33,312 nucleotides of DNA from a virus. Below the pieces are notes generated by a model. It ran no database searches, was not told the DNA's origin, and was given only the letters and a program-made list of their open reading frames with translations. This document shows, one piece after another, positions 2,816 through 26,407 of the stretch (positions are counted from its first letter, which is position 1; every line of letters begins with the position of its first letter). The translations under genes were made by a program, and so were the position numbers. The stretch spans positions 1 through 33,312 of the IMG/VR virus record IMGVR_UViG_3300006802_000291. One strand, written 5' to 3'.

Positions 2816-3029
2816 GCGTGAGGAGTTTGTCCTCAACAACCAACAATTTGCTAGTCTATTCTTAGAAATTCTCCAAGCGGAGTATGAAAGAATAGACCGA
2901 AAAGGATTCCGAGAAGAGGATTACGAAGATTCTAACTGGGTCTTCCTACAAGCCTTCCGGAATGGCAATCTAGCACAGATTACTAAGATTGCTGAACTGT
3001 TCTCTTACCTAGACCGAGGAAAGAAATGA
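2745..3029 (+). CDS. Small hypothetical protein between portal and scaffold
   Basis: Up to 94 residues. From about residue 22 it is highly charged and predicted helical (EEKRKREEFVLNNQQF, then LEILQAEYERIDRKGF). No family is recognised. The start is uncertain. ATG 2745 has an AGGAA at 2731-2735 but overlaps the portal gene by 71 bp in another frame. ATG 2772 shortens the overlap but has no visible ribosome site. The first 20 residues overlap portal and have a different composition, so translation could begin at 2772. The stop codon overlaps the scaffold start (ATGA at 3026). Its position suggests a head-assembly role, which is only inference. Confidence 0.7.
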   Translation: MTRPAQSLPMAWYRGCSSPEEKRKREEFVLNNQQFASLFLEILQAEYERIDRKGFREEDYEDSNWVFLQAFRNGNLAQITKIAELFSYLDRGKK

Positions 3030-5867: not shown

Positions 5868-6362
5868 ATGGCTAACCACGCTGACCTAACTGGAGCTGAA
5901 CTCCATGAGAACAAAGGAGTAGCTGCTGCTACAGACGACTTTGTTGCTACAGCTGCTAGTAGTGCGACTGTCTGGAAAAAGATTACGACAGACAATATTG
6001 ACACTACAGACATCTTTGGTCTTAATACTATCGTTGTTACATGCGAAATTCCGGATATCTCTACCGCAAGTAAGACTTGGGTAGTGATGCCATTTGCTGT
6101 ATCAGTGACGACTATCTACACTGTCATTGATGCCGCTATTACTGCTGCTGACGCTACGCTGACTGCTAGGAACCACTCCGGTGGTAGCATGGGTACGATT
6201 ACTATTACCCAGTCTGGTTCAGCCGCTGGCGATGTAGACAGTTTAACCCCAGTGTCAAACAATACGTTTGCTGCTGGAGAACATTTTACTATTGAAACTG
6301 ATGGAGGTTCTACTACTACTTCTAAGGCCATTGTCACCTTGGTCCTAACTCGGACTGCATAA
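5868..6362 (+). CDS. Small beta-rich structural protein, unknown role
   Basis: 164 residues, rich in Thr, Ala, Ser and Val. It starts MANHADLTGAELHENKG, an N-terminal pattern I associate with small phage structural proteins encoded beside head or fibre genes. It continues with VWKKITTDNIDTTDI and a beta-rich C-terminal half (TITITQSGSAAGDVDS; FTIETDGGSTTTSKA). There is no Cys pair, signal or membrane helix. ATG 5868 follows CTGGAGA. Codon use changes here to A/T-ending codons, unlike the three genes before the terminator. The stop overlaps the next start (TAATG at 6360-6364). It may be a minor head protein, head fibre or fibre adaptor; I cannot choose. Confidence 0.7.
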   Translation: MANHADLTGAELHENKGVAAATDDFVATAASSATVWKKITTDNIDTTDIFGLNTIVVTCEIPDISTASKTWVVMPFAVSVTTIYTVIDAAITAADATLTARNHSGGSMGTITITQSGSAAGDVDSLTPVSNNTFAAGEHFTIETDGGSTTTSKAIVTLVLTRTA

Positions 6363-6706
6363 TGGAAAGAGTAGTAGTTGGAAAGGATGACTACGTCCTA
6401 ACGAAGGGAGACATCCTCGATATAAAGAGTATCTTGGAGAAGGTCCACCGTGTTGGTGACTTTCATGTTTTTACAAAGTCAGACCAAGAAAAGATTGATA
6501 AGCTTGCTACTCTACTGAATAAGGAGGGAGTTCCAGAGGCACTATTAGAGCTTGCTGAAAGAATCGCCGTTAGGCGCTACTGGATGAAGTTACGAGGTGC
6601 ATTTTGGAAGTCCCTCCTTTTGTTCTTTGCAGGCTTCTCTGCAATTATGATCTTCTTCCGTGACTTCCAGAACCTCTTGGATATGCTAAGAGGTATTGTA
6701 AGGTGA
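6362..6706 (+). CDS. Small tail-anchored membrane protein, unknown function
   Basis: 114 residues. Residues 1-80 are soluble, charged and helical (ILDIKSILEKVHRVGDFHVF; SDQEKIDKLATLLNKEGVP). A single hydrophobic helix follows at about 84-101 (SLLLFFAGFSAIMIFF), then a short charged tail. With Arg/Lys before the helix, the large N-terminal part probably stays in the cytoplasm. The start overlaps the previous stop, and the stop overlaps the next gene by four bases (GTGA), so the two membrane proteins are likely made together. I do not recognise the family. Candidates are an accessory lysis or envelope protein, or a superinfection-related protein; none is shown by the sequence. Confidence 0.72.
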   Translation: MERVVVGKDDYVLTKGDILDIKSILEKVHRVGDFHVFTKSDQEKIDKLATLLNKEGVPEALLELAERIAVRRYWMKLRGAFWKSLLLFFAGFSAIMIFFRDFQNLLDMLRGIVR

Positions 6707-7161
6707 GGCTAGGTAGAATTCGAGATTGGGTAGCTTATGTCTTTTATGCCTTTTGGCTAATCGTAGCTCCTATACTAGTAGCTACGTTTATTGCTATGAA
6801 GGGTGAAAGTGGTCCAATCGAATCATTTAACCGTAGAGTTTACCCTGTAGAAGTAACTCCCGGAATGATCGTAACTGTTGAATCAGATGTTATCCGGACT
6901 AAGAGATGTTCAAGCCACGTTACTAGACGTTGGATCAATAACAAAGGTGACACCTTTGTAACTGAAGAGCAGGCAATACCTCTCCTCCCTGAGGGCCGAG
7001 AGCATTTCCTAGCGAAGCTTCAGATTCCATTAGTAAGATACAGTGGGGTTCTTACCCTTCGTACAGAAGTAGAATTCAAGTGTAATATCATCCAAGAGTA
7101 CTTTGGAGGTACTATCCTCCCTCTCTCTGATGTAACATTTAAGGTAGAATATAATGGCTAA
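6703..7161 (+). CDS. Membrane-anchored protein with extracytoplasmic beta domain, unknown function
   Basis: 152 residues starting with GTG 6703 in a GTGA overlap. A basic N-terminus (MRLGRIRDW) is followed by one hydrophobic helix at about 9-32 (YVFYAFWLIVAPILVATFIA). The rest, about 115 residues, should lie in the periplasm and looks beta-rich (EVTPGMIVTVESDVIRTKRC; YSGVLTLRTEVEFKCNIIQE). Two cysteines in that part could form a disulphide. It overlaps the fibre gene start at 7154. The family is not recognised. With the previous gene it makes a membrane pair between head and fibre genes. Position would allow a lysis accessory (spanin-like) or receptor-masking role, but there is no lipobox and no direct evidence. 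Confidence 0.72.
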   Translation: MRLGRIRDWVAYVFYAFWLIVAPILVATFIAMKGESGPIESFNRRVYPVEVTPGMIVTVESDVIRTKRCSSHVTRRWINNKGDTFVTEEQAIPLLPEGREHFLAKLQIPLVRYSGVLTLRTEVEFKCNIIQEYFGGTILPLSDVTFKVEYNG

Positions 7162-9241
7162 GCTGACTACTACAGATCTCGCTAGTCTAACCAGCGAATC
7201 TTCTGCAGTATCTGCTATTAATGACAACTTCGCTGCTGTAGAGACTGCTCTAGAGAATACACTCTCTAGGGACGGTACGTCTCCTAACAGCATGGAGTCT
7301 GACTTTGATATGAATTCTAACGACATCCTTAATGCTGGGGATGTTGAAGCTGATACGCTTACCTTAAATGGCCTTACAGTTACTGCTGAGGATGTACTCG
7401 GTAGTACTACTGTTACAATCATCAATAATGGTGAGGGAGACGTAAAAGAGCCTGTAGCAACTGCTACTACAGCTAATATTACTCTTAGCGGTGAGCAGAC
7501 TATTGATGGTGTTCTTACTAGTGCTAGTCGGGTCCTAGTTAAAGACCAAAGCGATGCTAGTGAAAATGGTATCTATTTGTCTGGTGCTGGAGCTTGGTCT
7601 AGGGCTACAGATGCTGATGACAACGGTGAGTTGCAGCCCGGTACACTAGTCTGGGTTGATTCTGAAGCTACTGTCAACGGTGACAAGCTTTTTACACTGA
7701 CTACTCCCAGCAATGTAGAACCAGTTATCGGTACTACGGATCAGACTTGGTCAAGCATTACTCCTGCTGCTAGGTACAAGTCTAACAAGAACAAAGGGGT
7801 CTTGGTCACTACGTATACTCTAGAACTGGCAGATGCTAACTGCATCCTGTACTTCTATGCTAGTGATCCTGTTACTGTTACCATCCCAACTAAAGCTGCT
7901 GTTAACTTCAGCAACAGAGTTGAGATCGGCCTAGTCAACTACGGCGGTGGTGCTATTACAGTCGTAGCAGATACTGGCGTTACTCTGTACAGTCCGGGTG
8001 ACAAGACGATCTCCCGTCAGTACGGATTAGCTTGGTTGAAAAAGAAGGGCGCTAACACTTGGTTTATGAATGGGGAAGCCCTCTCTACCGAGATGGAGAC
8101 CCTTCACGCTCTTACTGATCCTTCTGCAGATCGTATCCTTTTCTGGGACACGTCTGCGTCAGCCTACGGTCAACTGACAGTTGGCTCAGGGCTCACCCTT
8201 TCTGGGACCACCCTTAGTGCTGATGCTAGTAGTGCTGCTTGGGGGGCAATAACAGGGACTCTTTCTGATCAGACAGACCTACAGGCTGAACTTGATGCAA
8301 TCCTAGGCTATGGGTACATCGTAGACGCTGCAGAAGTTGACCTCCCTAATAGCCGTGCTGCAGCTAGTTCTACTAGTGTAACTGTAAATACCAGTCTTTC
8401 TGGGTACATCTCCTTTGAGCGTGCTGCTCTTACTGGCGATATTACCGCTTCTGCCAACTCTAATGCTACTACTCTAGCAACAGTTAACGCTAACGTTGGT
8501 TCATTCGGGGGTGCGTCTACAGTCCCTGTTATCACTGTTAATGCAAAGGGGCTAGTTACCGCTGTCTCTACAGCCTCTGTTAGTGCTACTGTAGGCGATG
8601 CAGACTATGGGGATATTACTGTAGCCTCTGGTGTCTGGACGATCGACAACGCTGCTGTAACCTACGCTAAGACCTCTGCTGGAGTTCAGGCTTCCCTAGA
8701 CCTCGCTGACTCTTCTCTGCAGTCTAGTGATATCGGAAGCACTGTTCAAGCCTACGATGCAGATCTAGCTACGATTGCTGGGTTGACTGCGACTACGGAT
8801 AACTTCATCCAGTCGAAGTCTTCTGCATGGGCTTCTCGTACGCCTACGCAAGTCGCAGCTGATCTGTCCTCCCTTATCAAACCGGTTGAACACATAGCGA
8901 TTGCATGCTCTGACGAGACAACTGCGTTGACTACTGGGACAGCTAAAGTAACGTTCAGGATGCCTTACGCATTCACCCTGACCTCTGTTAGAGCTTCTGT
9001 TACTACTGCTCCTACAGGGGCTAACCTGAATGTAGACATCAACGAGTCAGGGGTTACAATCCTCTCGACTATCCTTTCGATCGATGCGGGAGAGAAAACT
9101 AGTACTACAGCTGCAACTCCCGTAGTAATCAGTGATACTAGTCTGGCAGACGATGCTGAGATCACCATTGACATTGATCAGATCGGTAGCACCGTTGCTG
9201 GCGCAGGTCTGAAAGTCTACCTCATCGGTACTCGAACCTAA
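7154..9241 (+). CDS. Tail fibre protein, modular
   Basis: 695 residues, rich in Thr, Ala, Ser, Gly and Asp, predicted trimeric beta fibre. Three module types common in phage fibres are visible: ATTANITLSGEQTIDGVLTS with RVLVKDQSDASENGIYLSG (residues about 95-190); a ...GTLSDQTDLQAELDAIL joint near 375; and ATLATVNANVGSFGG-like text (here NATTLATVNANVGSFGG with VPVITVNAKGLVTAVSTASV) around 440-480. A C-terminal domain ends GLKVYLIGTRT, also widespread in phage adhesins. The N-terminal 30 residues (LASLTSESSAVSAINDNFAA) look like the short virion-binding segment. ATG 7154 overlaps the upstream gene; the stop overlaps the next fibre gene (TAATG). Host attachment is the expected role; the receptor cannot be read from the sequence. 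Confidence 0.85.
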   Translation: MAKLTTTDLASLTSESSAVSAINDNFAAVETALENTLSRDGTSPNSMESDFDMNSNDILNAGDVEADTLTLNGLTVTAEDVLGSTTVTIINNGEGDVKEPVATATTANITLSGEQTIDGVLTSASRVLVKDQSDASENGIYLSGAGAWSRATDADDNGELQPGTLVWVDSEATVNGDKLFTLTTPSNVEPVIGTTDQTWSSITPAARYKSNKNKGVLVTTYTLELADANCILYFYASDPVTVTIPTKAAVNFSNRVEIGLVNYGGGAITVVADTGVTLYSPGDKTISRQYGLAWLKKKGANTWFMNGEALSTEMETLHALTDPSADRILFWDTSASAYGQLTVGSGLTLSGTTLSADASSAAWGAITGTLSDQTDLQAELDAILGYGYIVDAAEVDLPNSRAAASSTSVTVNTSLSGYISFERAALTGDITASANSNATTLATVNANVGSFGGASTVPVITVNAKGLVTAVSTASVSATVGDADYGDITVASGVWTIDNAAVTYAKTSAGVQASLDLADSSLQSSDIGSTVQAYDADLATIAGLTATTDNFIQSKSSAWASRTPTQVAADLSSLIKPVEHIAIACSDETTALTTGTAKVTFRMPYAFTLTSVRASVTTAPTGANLNVDINESGVTILSTILSIDAGEKTSTTAATPVVISDTSLADDAEITIDIDQIGSTVAGAGLKVYLIGTRT

Positions 9242-10465: not shown

Positions 10466-11167
10466 ATGTTTCGTAACTACTTCCTCTCTATCGCTACTGT
10501 GGCTGTCTTTGCAGCTGTAACAGGCTACACTTTCCTAAAGCCTGACAATCTTCAGGCTATTCAAGATAGCCAAGTACAGGTGGCTAGTCTAGACGCTAAG
10601 TGTACTGGTACGATTATCGATGATGAACAGAATTACATCCTGACGGCAGCCCACTGTCTTTCTACAAATGCTAAGCAGGGGTTTTATGACATCATCCATC
10701 GAGAGTACAAGAATGGAAAAATTGCTGTAACAAAGACTTATAAAGCTAAGGTCATAAAGTTTGACAAGTCTGTAGACCTAATGCTCATGCAGCTGGTCGA
10801 AGGTGACTTTGAGAGTGGTACGGAAGTCAGTATCTCTACAGACTACAAAGTTGGAGACCCAGTCTTTGTCTATGGTAATCCGATTGGTCTGATCGACATT
10901 CTAACTCGTGGTGTTGTCGCTAGGGAGCTTATGTTTCTAGACAGTGCCAACCTGAAGCGTCCTGAGATGGTCATCGACGCTCTTATCAATGTCGGTAATA
11001 GTGGCGGTGGTGTTTTCAATGAGAGTGGCGAGCTGGTAGGTGTCTTGAATATCTCCTATGCCAGACGAATGTTTATAGGTATGGGAACTATTCTTAGTGA
11101 TGCACCTTACGGCATGGCTGTCCCATCTGAGTATGTTCTGGAATTCCTTGAAGGATACGTTGTGTGA
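10466..11167 (+). CDS. Exported trypsin-like (S1/HtrA-type) serine protease
   Basis: 233 residues. An N-terminal hydrophobic segment (residues 5-24, YFLSIATVAVFAAVTGYTFL) indicates export or membrane anchoring. The chymotrypsin-fold catalytic triad is visible: His63 in LTAAHC, Asp104 in KSVDLMLMQL, and Ser179 in NVGNSGGGVF. The oxyanion-type GNSGG and the following GELVGVLNIS strand match DegP/HtrA family proteases, but there is no PDZ domain, so only the protease core is present. It starts eight bases after the second fibre gene and shares GTGA with the endolysin start at 11164, placing it at the head of the lysis cassette. Cleavage of periplasmic or envelope proteins during lysis is the simplest hypothesis. 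Processing of a virion protein is the alternative. Confidence 0.88.
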   Translation: MFRNYFLSIATVAVFAAVTGYTFLKPDNLQAIQDSQVQVASLDAKCTGTIIDDEQNYILTAAHCLSTNAKQGFYDIIHREYKNGKIAVTKTYKAKVIKFDKSVDLMLMQLVEGDFESGTEVSISTDYKVGDPVFVYGNPIGLIDILTRGVVARELMFLDSANLKRPEMVIDALINVGNSGGGVFNESGELVGVLNISYARRMFIGMGTILSDAPYGMAVPSEYVLEFLEGYVV

Positions 11168-11790
11168 TTGACCACGGTTTATTCTTCCGCTTTATGAGGT
11201 CTACCTTTGGACCTCTAAGGCAGGAGCAGGTAGATGGGTTTAATGTACTTCTTCCCGAGCTTGAAGGTCTACCCTTTAGGCATCAGGCCTACATCCTAGC
11301 TACTGTCTGGCATGAGACTGGAAAGACTGTCCAGCCTGTACGTGAAGGCTTTAATGTCTCTGAGAAGTACAGGAAAGAGCACTTCCGTTATTACCCCTAC
11401 TACGGTCGTGGCTATGTCCAGCTGACTTGGGCTCACAACTACAAGAGGGCTGGAGACTACTTCAAAGTAGACCTCCTTAAAGACCCTGACAAGGCCCTAG
11501 AGCCTAAGCTTGCAGCTAAGATTCTAGTAGTAGGTATGACGAAGGGCTGGTTTGGTAAGCCCCTAGCTGACCAGTCGTACTACGAGATGCGAAGGTCAGT
11601 CAATATCCTAGACCAAGCCCAGAGGATTGCAGACTATGCCTACCTCTTCGAGAAAGTCCTGATTGACTCAACTGTAAATACTACAGCACCTGCAGTTGTC
11701 CCTCCTGCTTCTAAACCTAAGACGCTATCTAAACCTAAGACGCTAATTGAATTGATTGTATCCTTGATTAAAAGGTTGTTTGGTAAATGA
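11164..11790 (+). CDS. Endolysin, GH19 chitinase-like peptidoglycan hydrolase
   Basis: 208 residues starting at GTG 11164. The catalytic domain covers about residues 5-165 and carries ILATVWHETGKTVQPVREGF, where the Glu of WHETG is the expected acid, then YYGRGYVQLTWAHNY and GMTKGWFGKPLAD, all typical of GH19-like phage lysozymes (COG3179 type). No signal peptide is present, so release to the wall should depend on a holin. The C-terminal 40 residues are a Pro/Lys linker containing a perfect 18-bp tandem duplication (KPKTLS KPKTL), followed by a cationic amphipathic helix (LIELIVSLIKRLFGK) that could bind membrane. It overlaps the protease upstream and the small membrane protein downstream (ATGA). 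The family call is strong; the tail role is inference. Confidence 0.88.
   Translation: MIDHGLFFRFMRSTFGPLRQEQVDGFNVLLPELEGLPFRHQAYILATVWHETGKTVQPVREGFNVSEKYRKEHFRYYPYYGRGYVQLTWAHNYKRAGDYFKVDLLKDPDKALEPKLAAKILVVGMTKGWFGKPLADQSYYEMRRSVNILDQAQRIADYAYLFEKVLIDSTVNTTAPAVVPPASKPKTLSKPKTLIELIVSLIKRLFGK
11710..11745 (+). repeat. Two perfect 18-bp tandem direct repeats in the endolysin tail
   Basis: Unit TCTAAACCTAAGACGCTA occurs at 11710-11727 and again at 11728-11745. In the endolysin frame it encodes a duplicated Ser-Lys-Pro-Lys-Thr-Leu unit in the linker before the C-terminal cationic helix. The identity of both copies at all bases suggests a recent duplication or slippage. Confidence 0.9.
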
Positions 11791-12032
11791 AGAAAGTTTG
11801 GGAAAAGTTCAAGTACTACATCCACGCTAAAAGCTTAGTATGGTGGACTGGTCTAATGTCTGTATTACTGGGTATCTCTCAGTGGTTCACGGACAACCCT
11901 ATTGTACACTCCCTAGCAGAAGTAGTTAACTCTCTTGGTGGTGGAATGGGTCAGGTCAGCCCTGCGAATCTAATCATCCTCGGTCTTAGCCTTATCGGTA
12001 TCCGCGCTAAACTGGAAGACATGGCAAAGTGA
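11787..12032 (+). CDS. Small membrane protein in lysis cassette (possible holin partner)
   Basis: 81 residues. A basic N-terminus (MKKVWEKFKYYIHAK) is followed by a hydrophobic helix at about 16-36 (SLVWWTGLMSVLLGISQWFT). A Gly-rich stretch comes next, then a second hydrophobic segment at about 60-72 (NLIILGLSLIGIRAKL), and a short charged end. Two membrane segments, small size and position between endolysin and the 3TM holin suggest a holin, antiholin or pinholin-like protein. It is coupled at both ends: ATGA with the endolysin and GTGA with the next gene. I do not recognise a specific family, so the function rests on topology and context. Confidence 0.72.
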   Translation: MKKVWEKFKYYIHAKSLVWWTGLMSVLLGISQWFTDNPIVHSLAEVVNSLGGGMGQVSPANLIILGLSLIGIRAKLEDMAK

Positions 12033-12391
12033 TCTGGAAGCTCTTTAGCCTCTTCTTTACGTCTGGGTTGAGCTCCATAGGGGATCAGCTTAACCGGGCA
12101 TATCAGGCTAAACTGACTGCACAGAATGACCATGAGCGTATTGCAGCAGAGCTGGATATCAAACAACTAGAGGCTAGACAAGCTGTCCTAATAGCAGAAC
12201 AAGGGAACTGGGTTACTAGGTGGATTCGCCCTGCTATCGCCCTCCCTGTAGTCATCTTTCTCTGGAAGGTCCTCGTCTATGACCTCGTATTGGGCCTAGG
12301 AGCTACAGACAACCCTAGCCAGAACGTCTGGTACGTCATCATGACTGTCCTTGGTGCATACTTCCTCACCCGTCCATTCGAGAAGAGATAA
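12029..12391 (+). CDS. Holin of the GTA 3TM type
   Basis: 120 residues starting at GTG 12029. A first hydrophobic patch lies at residues 1-16. A charged coiled-coil-like helix follows around 22-56 (YQAKLTAQNDHERIAAELDI, LEARQAVLIAEQ). Then NWVTRWIRPAIALPVVIFLW and VLVYDLVLGLGATDNPS precede a last hydrophobic helix (WYVIMTVLGAYFLTRPFEK). This layout and the WxxRxxRPxxA and VLGLG patterns match the three-transmembrane holin family described in gene transfer agents (GTA_holin_3TM). It should open the inner membrane for the upstream endolysin. The stop overlaps the tail tube gene start (TAATG at 12389-12393). Confidence 0.85.
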   Translation: MIWKLFSLFFTSGLSSIGDQLNRAYQAKLTAQNDHERIAAELDIKQLEARQAVLIAEQGNWVTRWIRPAIALPVVIFLWKVLVYDLVLGLGATDNPSQNVWYVIMTVLGAYFLTRPFEKR

Positions 12392-13140
12392 TGAAATACA
12401 CACTCCTTGAGATGATCCAGCGTATCCTCTCCGCTATTAAGGGCGAAGAGGTTAATAGCTACAGTGATACCGCTGAGTCCCTAGCAGTCCGTGACATAGT
12501 CAAGGAATGCTATTTCAACATCATCAGCAATCAGGACTTTCCGGAGCTCAAGACGTTCTTCGAACTGAATGCCAGTGGAGACAACAACCTCCCTGTCCGG
12601 ATGTCTATCCCTGACGATGTCATTGGTGTAGAGTGGATTAGGTATAATGGTGAGGTGTTGTCCTACCTTGAGCCTGACGATTTCTACACCAAGCAGAACA
12701 ACCTCGATACTACCGCTGACAATGTCGGTACGATGAATATCGAGACTGGTACCGGACCTGATACCATACCGTTTAACTACACTAACGATGCTGACCCCCA
12801 GTACTATACGTACTATGAAGACAAGTACATCATCTTTGATTCGTACGATAGTGATACTGAGGCTACCCTCCAGAAGGCGAACACAGTATGCTATGGACTA
12901 CGTACGATTGCATGGGAGGATGATGACTCCTTTACCCCGACCCTAGACGCCCATTCCTTCAATATCCTCATGAAGGACGCTAAGGCTATGGCCTTCCTAG
13001 AACTGCGTCAGATGACCAATCAGAGTGAGATTGCTGCTGGTCGTAAAGCTAGGATCAAGGCAGAGCAGAAGAAGCATAGGGCTAACTACAAGAGGATGGA
13101 ATACTACTACAACGACTATCCCAACTACGGAAAGAGATGA
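12391..13140 (+). CDS. Tail tubular protein A (T7 gp11-like adaptor)
   Basis: 249 residues. The N-terminus TLLEMIQRILSAIKGEEVNS followed by DTAESLAVRDIVKECYFNII is characteristic of the gp11-like tail adaptor, which joins the portal ring to the tail nozzle and helps close the head after packaging. The middle contains DDVIGVEWIRYNGEVLSYLE and later WEDDDSFTPTLDAHSFNILM with KDAKAMAFLELRQMTNQSEI, also family-typical. The C-terminus is basic and Tyr/Asn-rich. It overlaps the holin stop and is followed by a small gene and the gp12-like nozzle, the expected partner. The length is somewhat above T7 gp11 (196 residues) but normal for marine podoviruses. Confidence 0.88.
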   Translation: MKYTLLEMIQRILSAIKGEEVNSYSDTAESLAVRDIVKECYFNIISNQDFPELKTFFELNASGDNNLPVRMSIPDDVIGVEWIRYNGEVLSYLEPDDFYTKQNNLDTTADNVGTMNIETGTGPDTIPFNYTNDADPQYYTYYEDKYIIFDSYDSDTEATLQKANTVCYGLRTIAWEDDDSFTPTLDAHSFNILMKDAKAMAFLELRQMTNQSEIAAGRKARIKAEQKKHRANYKRMEYYYNDYPNYGKR

Positions 13141-26095: not shown

Positions 26096-26407
26096 GTGTG
26101 GCGGAAGGACGGACAAGTAGACACTCGGTTCCTCCCAAAGATCATTAGGAGGCCACTCCTCCAGCATGGTGCTGAAGGTTTATCATGGCAAACCCTACAT
26201 AGTTGGGGTGAACCAAACGAAAAAGAAGGCCCTCCAGAGCCTACCATCGAAATAGACAGTAGGTTGGAGGGCTGTAGAAGGCTAGATACAGAGATCCATG
26301 AAGTGCTACATCTAGCATGTCCATGGATGCCAGAGTATGCAGTACGAAGAACTGCTACCTACCTAGCGAAGGTTCTCTGGCATATAGGATACAGGTTGAA
26401 ACAATAA
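26096..26407 (+). CDS. Small protein with HExxH zinc-protease motif
   Basis: 103 residues starting at GTG 26096 with AGGAG nine bases upstream. The N-terminal third is basic. From about residue 55 the text GCRRLDTEIHEVLHLACPWM contains HEVLH, a perfect HExxH motif in a predicted helix, followed by MPEYAVRRTATYLAKVLWHI and a short basic end. Small phage proteins with this layout (helix with HExxH, then Pro, then an EEAV...AxxLARxLWRLGY-like helix) are familiar to me, but I know no demonstrated activity. A Glu, His or Asp downstream that could serve as third zinc ligand is present (Glu82, His99). It is the last gene before the terminator at 26409 and could act late in infection. Confidence 0.78.
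   Translation: MWRKDGQVDTRFLPKIIRRPLLQHGAEGLSWQTLHSWGEPNEKEGPPEPTIEIDSRLEGCRRLDTEIHEVLHLACPWMPEYAVRRTATYLAKVLWHIGYRLKQ

Follow-up and report, generated by a model that had tools for sequence, protein, structure and literature searches.

A phage lysis cassette with an HtrA-like serine protease that lacks a PDZ domain and might assist lysis from the periplasm

The stretch of DNA analyzed here, hereafter the window, is the whole IMG/VR virus record IMGVR_UViG_3300006802_000291 with 33,312 bases. It represents a genome fragment, cut off within the terminase gene at its start and within a DNA polymerase gene at its end. Based on portal, coat and tail genes, its nearest phages are podoviruses of the family Zobellviridae, for example Vibrio phage ICP2 and Celeribacter phage P12053L, to whose portals that of the window is 40–45% identical. 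Its coat protein is P22-like (PHROG 267). A lysis cassette lies between a fibre gene and a tail gene (Table 1). Its holin shares up to 56% identity with holins from the lysis cassettes of other phages, and the Pfam match of this gene sits just under the cut-off. For the small protein encoded in front of the holin, no match above noise was obtained in Pfam or PHROG. The sequence-only reading of this DNA had emphasized that the protease is translationally coupled to the endolysin. Both reading frames indeed share a GTGA overlap. However, the window comprises six such 4-base overlaps (at 3026, 6703, 11164, 11787, 12029, and 13137), so that the overlap alone says little and reflects ordinary gene packing.

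Table 1. Genes of the lysis cassette and the two genes marking its borders.
Feature	Position	Strand	Evidence
Fibre / virion structural gene, left marker of the slot	7154..9241	+	PHROG 11518 tail fiber, 27782
Trypsin/HtrA-fold serine protease, predicted exported, 233 aa, ATG start	10466..11167	+	Pfam, PHROG, AF2
GH19 endolysin, 208 aa, GTG start	11164..11790	+	Glyco_hydro_19 8.7e-6; PHROG 181 endolysin 1e-23
Small protein with hydrophobic segments, 81 aa, holin-like by position	11787..12032	+	
GTA_holin_3TM-like holin, 120 aa	12029..12391	+	PHROG 3427 holin 1.3e-5; Pfam PF11351 7e-5
Tail protein, right marker of the slot	12391..13140	+	PHROG 7592 1.2e-53

The protease matches the Pfam families Trypsin_2 (2e-18) and Trypsin (2.6e-13) and, over its full length, PHROG 9683 'protease' (residues 5–231 on 7–224 of 233, E 2.9e-23). 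Its catalytic triad was correctly recognized from the letters alone: all 35 aligned phage proteins retain His63, Asp104, and Ser179. A PDB sequence search returned plant Deg1, DegQ, DegP, and DegS. Structure prediction and search, as proposed by the earlier reading, pointed in the same direction, since the AlphaFold (AF2) monomer model calculated from 34 aligned phage proteins (pLDDT 87.9, pTM 0.84) matched DegP (3otp, E 4e-14) and the protease domain of DegS (2qf0) best, with TM-scores on target of about 0.73–0.79. The S1-pocket region reads DALINVGNSGG, while the corresponding sequence of DegP is DAAINRGNSGG. Such a DegP-like pocket suggests that small aliphatic residues would be accepted at the cut site. 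No PDZ domain was detected by Pfam in the protease and only 54 aa remain after Ser179, in agreement with what had been noticed before. Consequently, the protein is HtrA-like in fold, but without the PDZ domain that is among the hallmarks of the HtrA family. With the HtrA/Deg proteases (DegP, DegQ, DegS; MEROPS S1C) it shares the chymotrypsin fold, the His-Asp-Ser triad, a putative N-terminal export or anchor segment and the S1 pocket. In contrast to them, it is encoded by a phage within a lysis cassette and possesses a pair of cysteines next to the catalytic His, as trypsins do. Its homologues are only 22–32% identical to it, so conclusions drawn from the family may not fully carry over, and a single-sequence search of IMG/VR revealed no close relatives of the protease.

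The N-terminus carries a hydrophobic segment (residues 5–23), and all 35 of the aligned phage proteins start in a comparable way. Thus, the segment is probably of the export type, as had been proposed. Within the N-terminus of the window protein no clear AxA cleavage site was found, while other homologues display clear signal-peptide cleavage motifs or lipoboxes. It could therefore be an uncleaved anchor similar to that of DegS. The cysteines that flank the catalytic His (Cys46 and Cys64) occur together in 29 of 35 aligned proteins and are both missing in the other 6, while a single one is never found (0/35). This pattern favors a disulphide bond and thus an oxidizing compartment. Taken together, we infer that the protease is exported, proteolytically active and expressed late in infection.

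Is its position beside lysis genes a coincidence? The nearest relative from a characterized genome within PHROG 9683 is SUAG_00063 of Sulfitobacter phage pCB2047-A (about 31% identical). It is likewise predicted to be exported and is located at the end of a cassette with a GH108 endolysin, two holins and an XhlA-like gene. However, the endolysin is thus GH108 instead of GH19, and the gene order relative to the endolysin is reversed if compared to the window. In Microcystis phage Mae-JY35 the order is amidase, holin, Rz, Rz1, XhlA-like gene and protease, and in Rhizobium phage RHph_X2_25 a lysozyme, holins and an XhlA-like gene are followed by the protease ~2 kb further on. A profile-derived search of IMG/VR for protease homologues yielded 59 loci (designated, like the other contigs, by L numbers); the underlying alignment comprised four phage proteins, all lysis-linked, which had been picked as phage database matches regardless of their neighbors. 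Endolysins were mapped on whole contigs by Pfam endolysin families and counted as linked within 2.5 kb. On this basis, the protease is linked to an endolysin in 14 of 24 contigs that carry both (expected 3.0, P about 2e-8) and in 10 of 20 contigs >30 kb (expected 1.6, P about 8e-7), where the expectation assumes a uniformly placed endolysin and some dependence remains among homologous contigs. The assignment of the protease to the lysis cassette is consequently borne out by its recurrence in diverse phages. The linked endolysins belong to four families (GH19, GH24, GH108, and amidase). The protease precedes the endolysin in the window, L032, L038, and L049, and follows the holin in pCB2047-A, L013, L035, L048, L050, L058, L064, and L080. 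With endolysins and gene orders this varied, the linkage has probably been established more than once.

Not all members of the family follow this pattern. The protease lies away from any detected endolysin in 10 of the 24 contigs, among them very large phages with lipoprotein types of the protease and the longer type of L012, and in Rhizobium phage RHph_N3_13 the homologue is found among nucleotide-metabolism genes. Thus, some members are not tied to lysis. Furthermore, many cassettes with the same holin type (scanned with alignments A5 and A6, since A3 was too divergent) are free of the protease, which is therefore dispensable. The sister phages of the window, L097–L111, which were identified by the tail gene at 12391 that they share with it, illustrate this. 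Homologues of the fibre gene occupy the same place in L097, L099, L100, L102, and L109–L111. Between fibre and tail gene, XhlA is accompanied by a lysozyme and a holin in L102, by a holin-like gene and a hydrolase-like gene that resembles CHAP by eye in L105, and by a lysozyme in L110, while in this slot of L097, L098, L100, and L104 no lysis genes are visible. None of the sister phages L097–L111 has the protease. With sister slots that vary and never contain it, the protease of the window is an accessory gene in a variable lysis slot. Two further searches gave little: the portal recovered a single truncated contig from IMG/VR, and the search for prophage copies in the genome collection led to one false lead, a Bacteroidetes fragment.

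The patchy, accessory distribution, the homologues outside lysis modules and the fact that DegP, DegS, and DegQ are the closest solved relatives would all fit a DegP-like passenger that serves periplasmic quality control or host takeover. Late in infection, such a protease would dispose of envelope proteins that are misfolded or harmful, and its seat in the lysis block would merely provide late expression. We regard this main rival explanation as rather unlikely, because the linkage to lysis genes is far above chance and occurs in many gene orders, and because the protease lacks a PDZ domain for the recognition of unfolded substrates. That the gene instead encodes a virion or maturation protease, as its fibre and tail gene neighbors might indicate, is hardly credible. 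The predicted N-terminal export segment and the cysteine pair speak against it, as do the homologues, which sit with lysis rather than capsid genes. The P22-like coat points the same way: to our knowledge, P22 itself needs no prohead protease. Another scenario is a superinfection block, in which the protease would cut ejection proteins or the receptor of incoming phages in the periplasm. It would suit a protein that presumably faces this compartment, and the protease-bearing phage pCB2047-A also encodes an integrase; a PHROG match to a Sie-like family is at noise level (E 0.21). However, the protease is linked to late lysis genes instead of lysogeny genes and has no repressor or immunity neighbors, which makes this scenario improbable.

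The more specific proposal of the sequence-only reading was that the protease might replace spanins, thus executing the outer-membrane step through cutting of tethers between outer membrane and peptidoglycan. We scanned all six frames with a relaxed lipobox pattern that recovers 6/6 controls (the unimolecular spanin of P12053L and five o-spanins). In the 33.3-kb window no credible o- or u-spanin candidate was detected in any frame; the pattern matched just two ORFs (31 and 37 aa), both of which lie within long genes in another frame. Cultured cobaviruses encode, near the endolysin, a spanin that begins with a lipoprotein signal and ends in a transmembrane domain (PMC6775973). In P12053L this unimolecular spanin is located beyond the internal virion proteins, and the corresponding place inside the window, after 26083, holds no spanin, just a 103-aa gene. 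The statement that no spanin pair is visible is therefore true for the window, itself a genome fragment. A spanin elsewhere in the genome had been named as refutation; in the part that the record covers none was detected, which speaks for the earlier reading as far as this fragment reaches. The 103-aa ORF (26096–26407) closes the late arm, at the position of endolysin and u-spanin in P12053L, and shows an HExxH-like motif (EIHEVLHLACPW).

While both the missing spanin and the empty u-spanin place would fit a replacement, the relatives argue against it. The protease of Mae-JY35, L043, and L052 has Rz-like spanins next to it (PHROG-supported, the o-spanin of L052 weakly), and spanin pairs were detected by profiles beside the protease of L008 and L016 (the o-spanin of L016 weakly). 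If proteases stood in for spanins, both should avoid each other. Instead, lipoprotein spanin candidates within 3 kb were found in 6 of 22 loci linked to the protease, but in 0 of 18 loci without it, the latter with the same holins or slot and after two chance matches had been discarded by eye, in two samples that were collected differently. This is opposite to the predicted co-occurrence of the protease with missing spanins. Moreover, ~13% of 677 surveyed phages have no recognisable spanin anyway (PMC6139136). Thus, we reject spanin replacement on co-occurrence and give it little credence for the window as well, while lysis assistance through the cutting of envelope proteins is favored over it. 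Like the phage spanins (Rz/Rz1 or unimolecular), the protease would work within the envelope during the lysis stage. In contrast to them, it is an enzyme, not a fusogen, and has neither lipobox nor coiled coil.

If disruption of the outer membrane is needed at all, the endolysin may contribute to it. Its C-terminus is predicted to form a cationic amphipathic helix (KTLIELIVSLIKRL; hydrophobic moment 0.65), with a net charge of +6 over the last 35 aa, and cationic amphipathic endolysin tails were discussed as possible spanin alternative (Kongari et al., PMC6139136). Amphipathic or transmembrane tails are frequent in such cassettes, with or without a protease (window 11700–11787, L001, L003, L048, L049, L058, and L080), and can be considered candidates for outer-membrane attack or membrane tethering. 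Close relatives of the window endolysin were not found in IMG/VR. Given the tight linkage of the protease to holin, endolysin, and XhlA-like genes, one might also envision that it activates or tunes one of these lysis proteins by cleavage. This appears very improbable: the linked endolysins stem from four unrelated families and have no visible pro-region in common, and no export signal was found in the window endolysin, which would consequently meet the protease only after holin triggering.

Based on these considerations, we propose, with confidence barely above even, that the gene encodes an accessory protease that faces the periplasm and acts at the lysis stage, where it cuts host envelope proteins and thereby aids lysis without being a spanin stand-in. 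After export, the protein would either stay tethered to the inner membrane, as DegS does, or be set free in the periplasm, and its expression would coincide with that of the late lysis genes. When the infection ends, it would attack host envelope proteins from the periplasmic side. The envelope might thereby become looser, or an obstacle to lysis might be removed, and holin and endolysin could then complete their work sooner. It might do so with or without spanins, but never in their place. A wider generalization is tentative and, on balance, rather doubtful: exported proteases of the trypsin/HtrA fold might form an optional, yet unnamed class of lysis-cassette enzymes in phages of Gram-negative hosts. 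Such enzymes would have been gained repeatedly beside unrelated endolysins and would cut tethers between outer membrane and wall or other envelope proteins, helping the outer membrane to yield, alone or together with spanins, next to which they occur in several phages.

The nearest experimental parallel is LypABC (PMC13236601). There, the trypsin-like serine peptidase domains of LypA and LypC are required for alphaproteobacterial lysis in the release of the Caulobacter gene-transfer agent, and the catalytic Ser of LypA is needed for lysis. However, LypA comprises CARD and ATPase domains and LypC an endonuclease domain in an NLR-like system, whereas the window protease is a single domain of 233 aa, and no export segment appears to be reported for LypA or LypC, while the window protease has a hydrophobic N-terminus. 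In the open-access literature (subscription papers were outside our scope) we found no description of a recurrent lysis-cassette protease. The HtrA-fold protease itself is well known; what appears to be new is its use as an accessory gene of lysis cassettes. For the question of how phages without spanins breach the outer membrane, a recurrent lysis-cassette protease is a testable candidate for a periplasmic step of lysis, for which isolated phages of Sulfitobacter, Microcystis, and Rhizobium are among those available. Nevertheless, the absence of spanins by itself does not predict a protease.

Besides the lysis cassette, some related and neighboring genes were noticed. Upstream of the fibre gene, the window encodes a 114-aa protein with a C-terminal transmembrane segment (6362–6706) and, just behind it, a 152-aa protein with an N-terminal transmembrane segment and a Cys-containing extracytoplasmic domain (6703–7161). 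The latter matched no database family and is weakly similar (21%) to a 150-aa protein (L048:5444–5896) encoded directly upstream of the protease in L048 and L055; support for this kinship stayed weak (BLASTP E 0.003, hhalign probability 3%). Lipoprotein-signal versions of the small protease occur in L011, L024, L029, L034, L041, L053, L059, and L062. Several of these contigs are very large, and no endolysin was detected within 2.5 kb. Phage-encoded DegP-like proteases of 402–444 aa, with a C-terminal extension that is PDZ-like by eye, are present in L010, L012, L014, L019, and L060. Finally, in many of these phages the protease or the lysis cassette is followed by a metallophosphoesterase-like gene (about 360–470 aa), the product of which has a DNA-binding-like segment at its N-terminus (L001:8558, L003:7724, L035:6706, L043:6606, L050:6893, L058:6719, and L080:7401).
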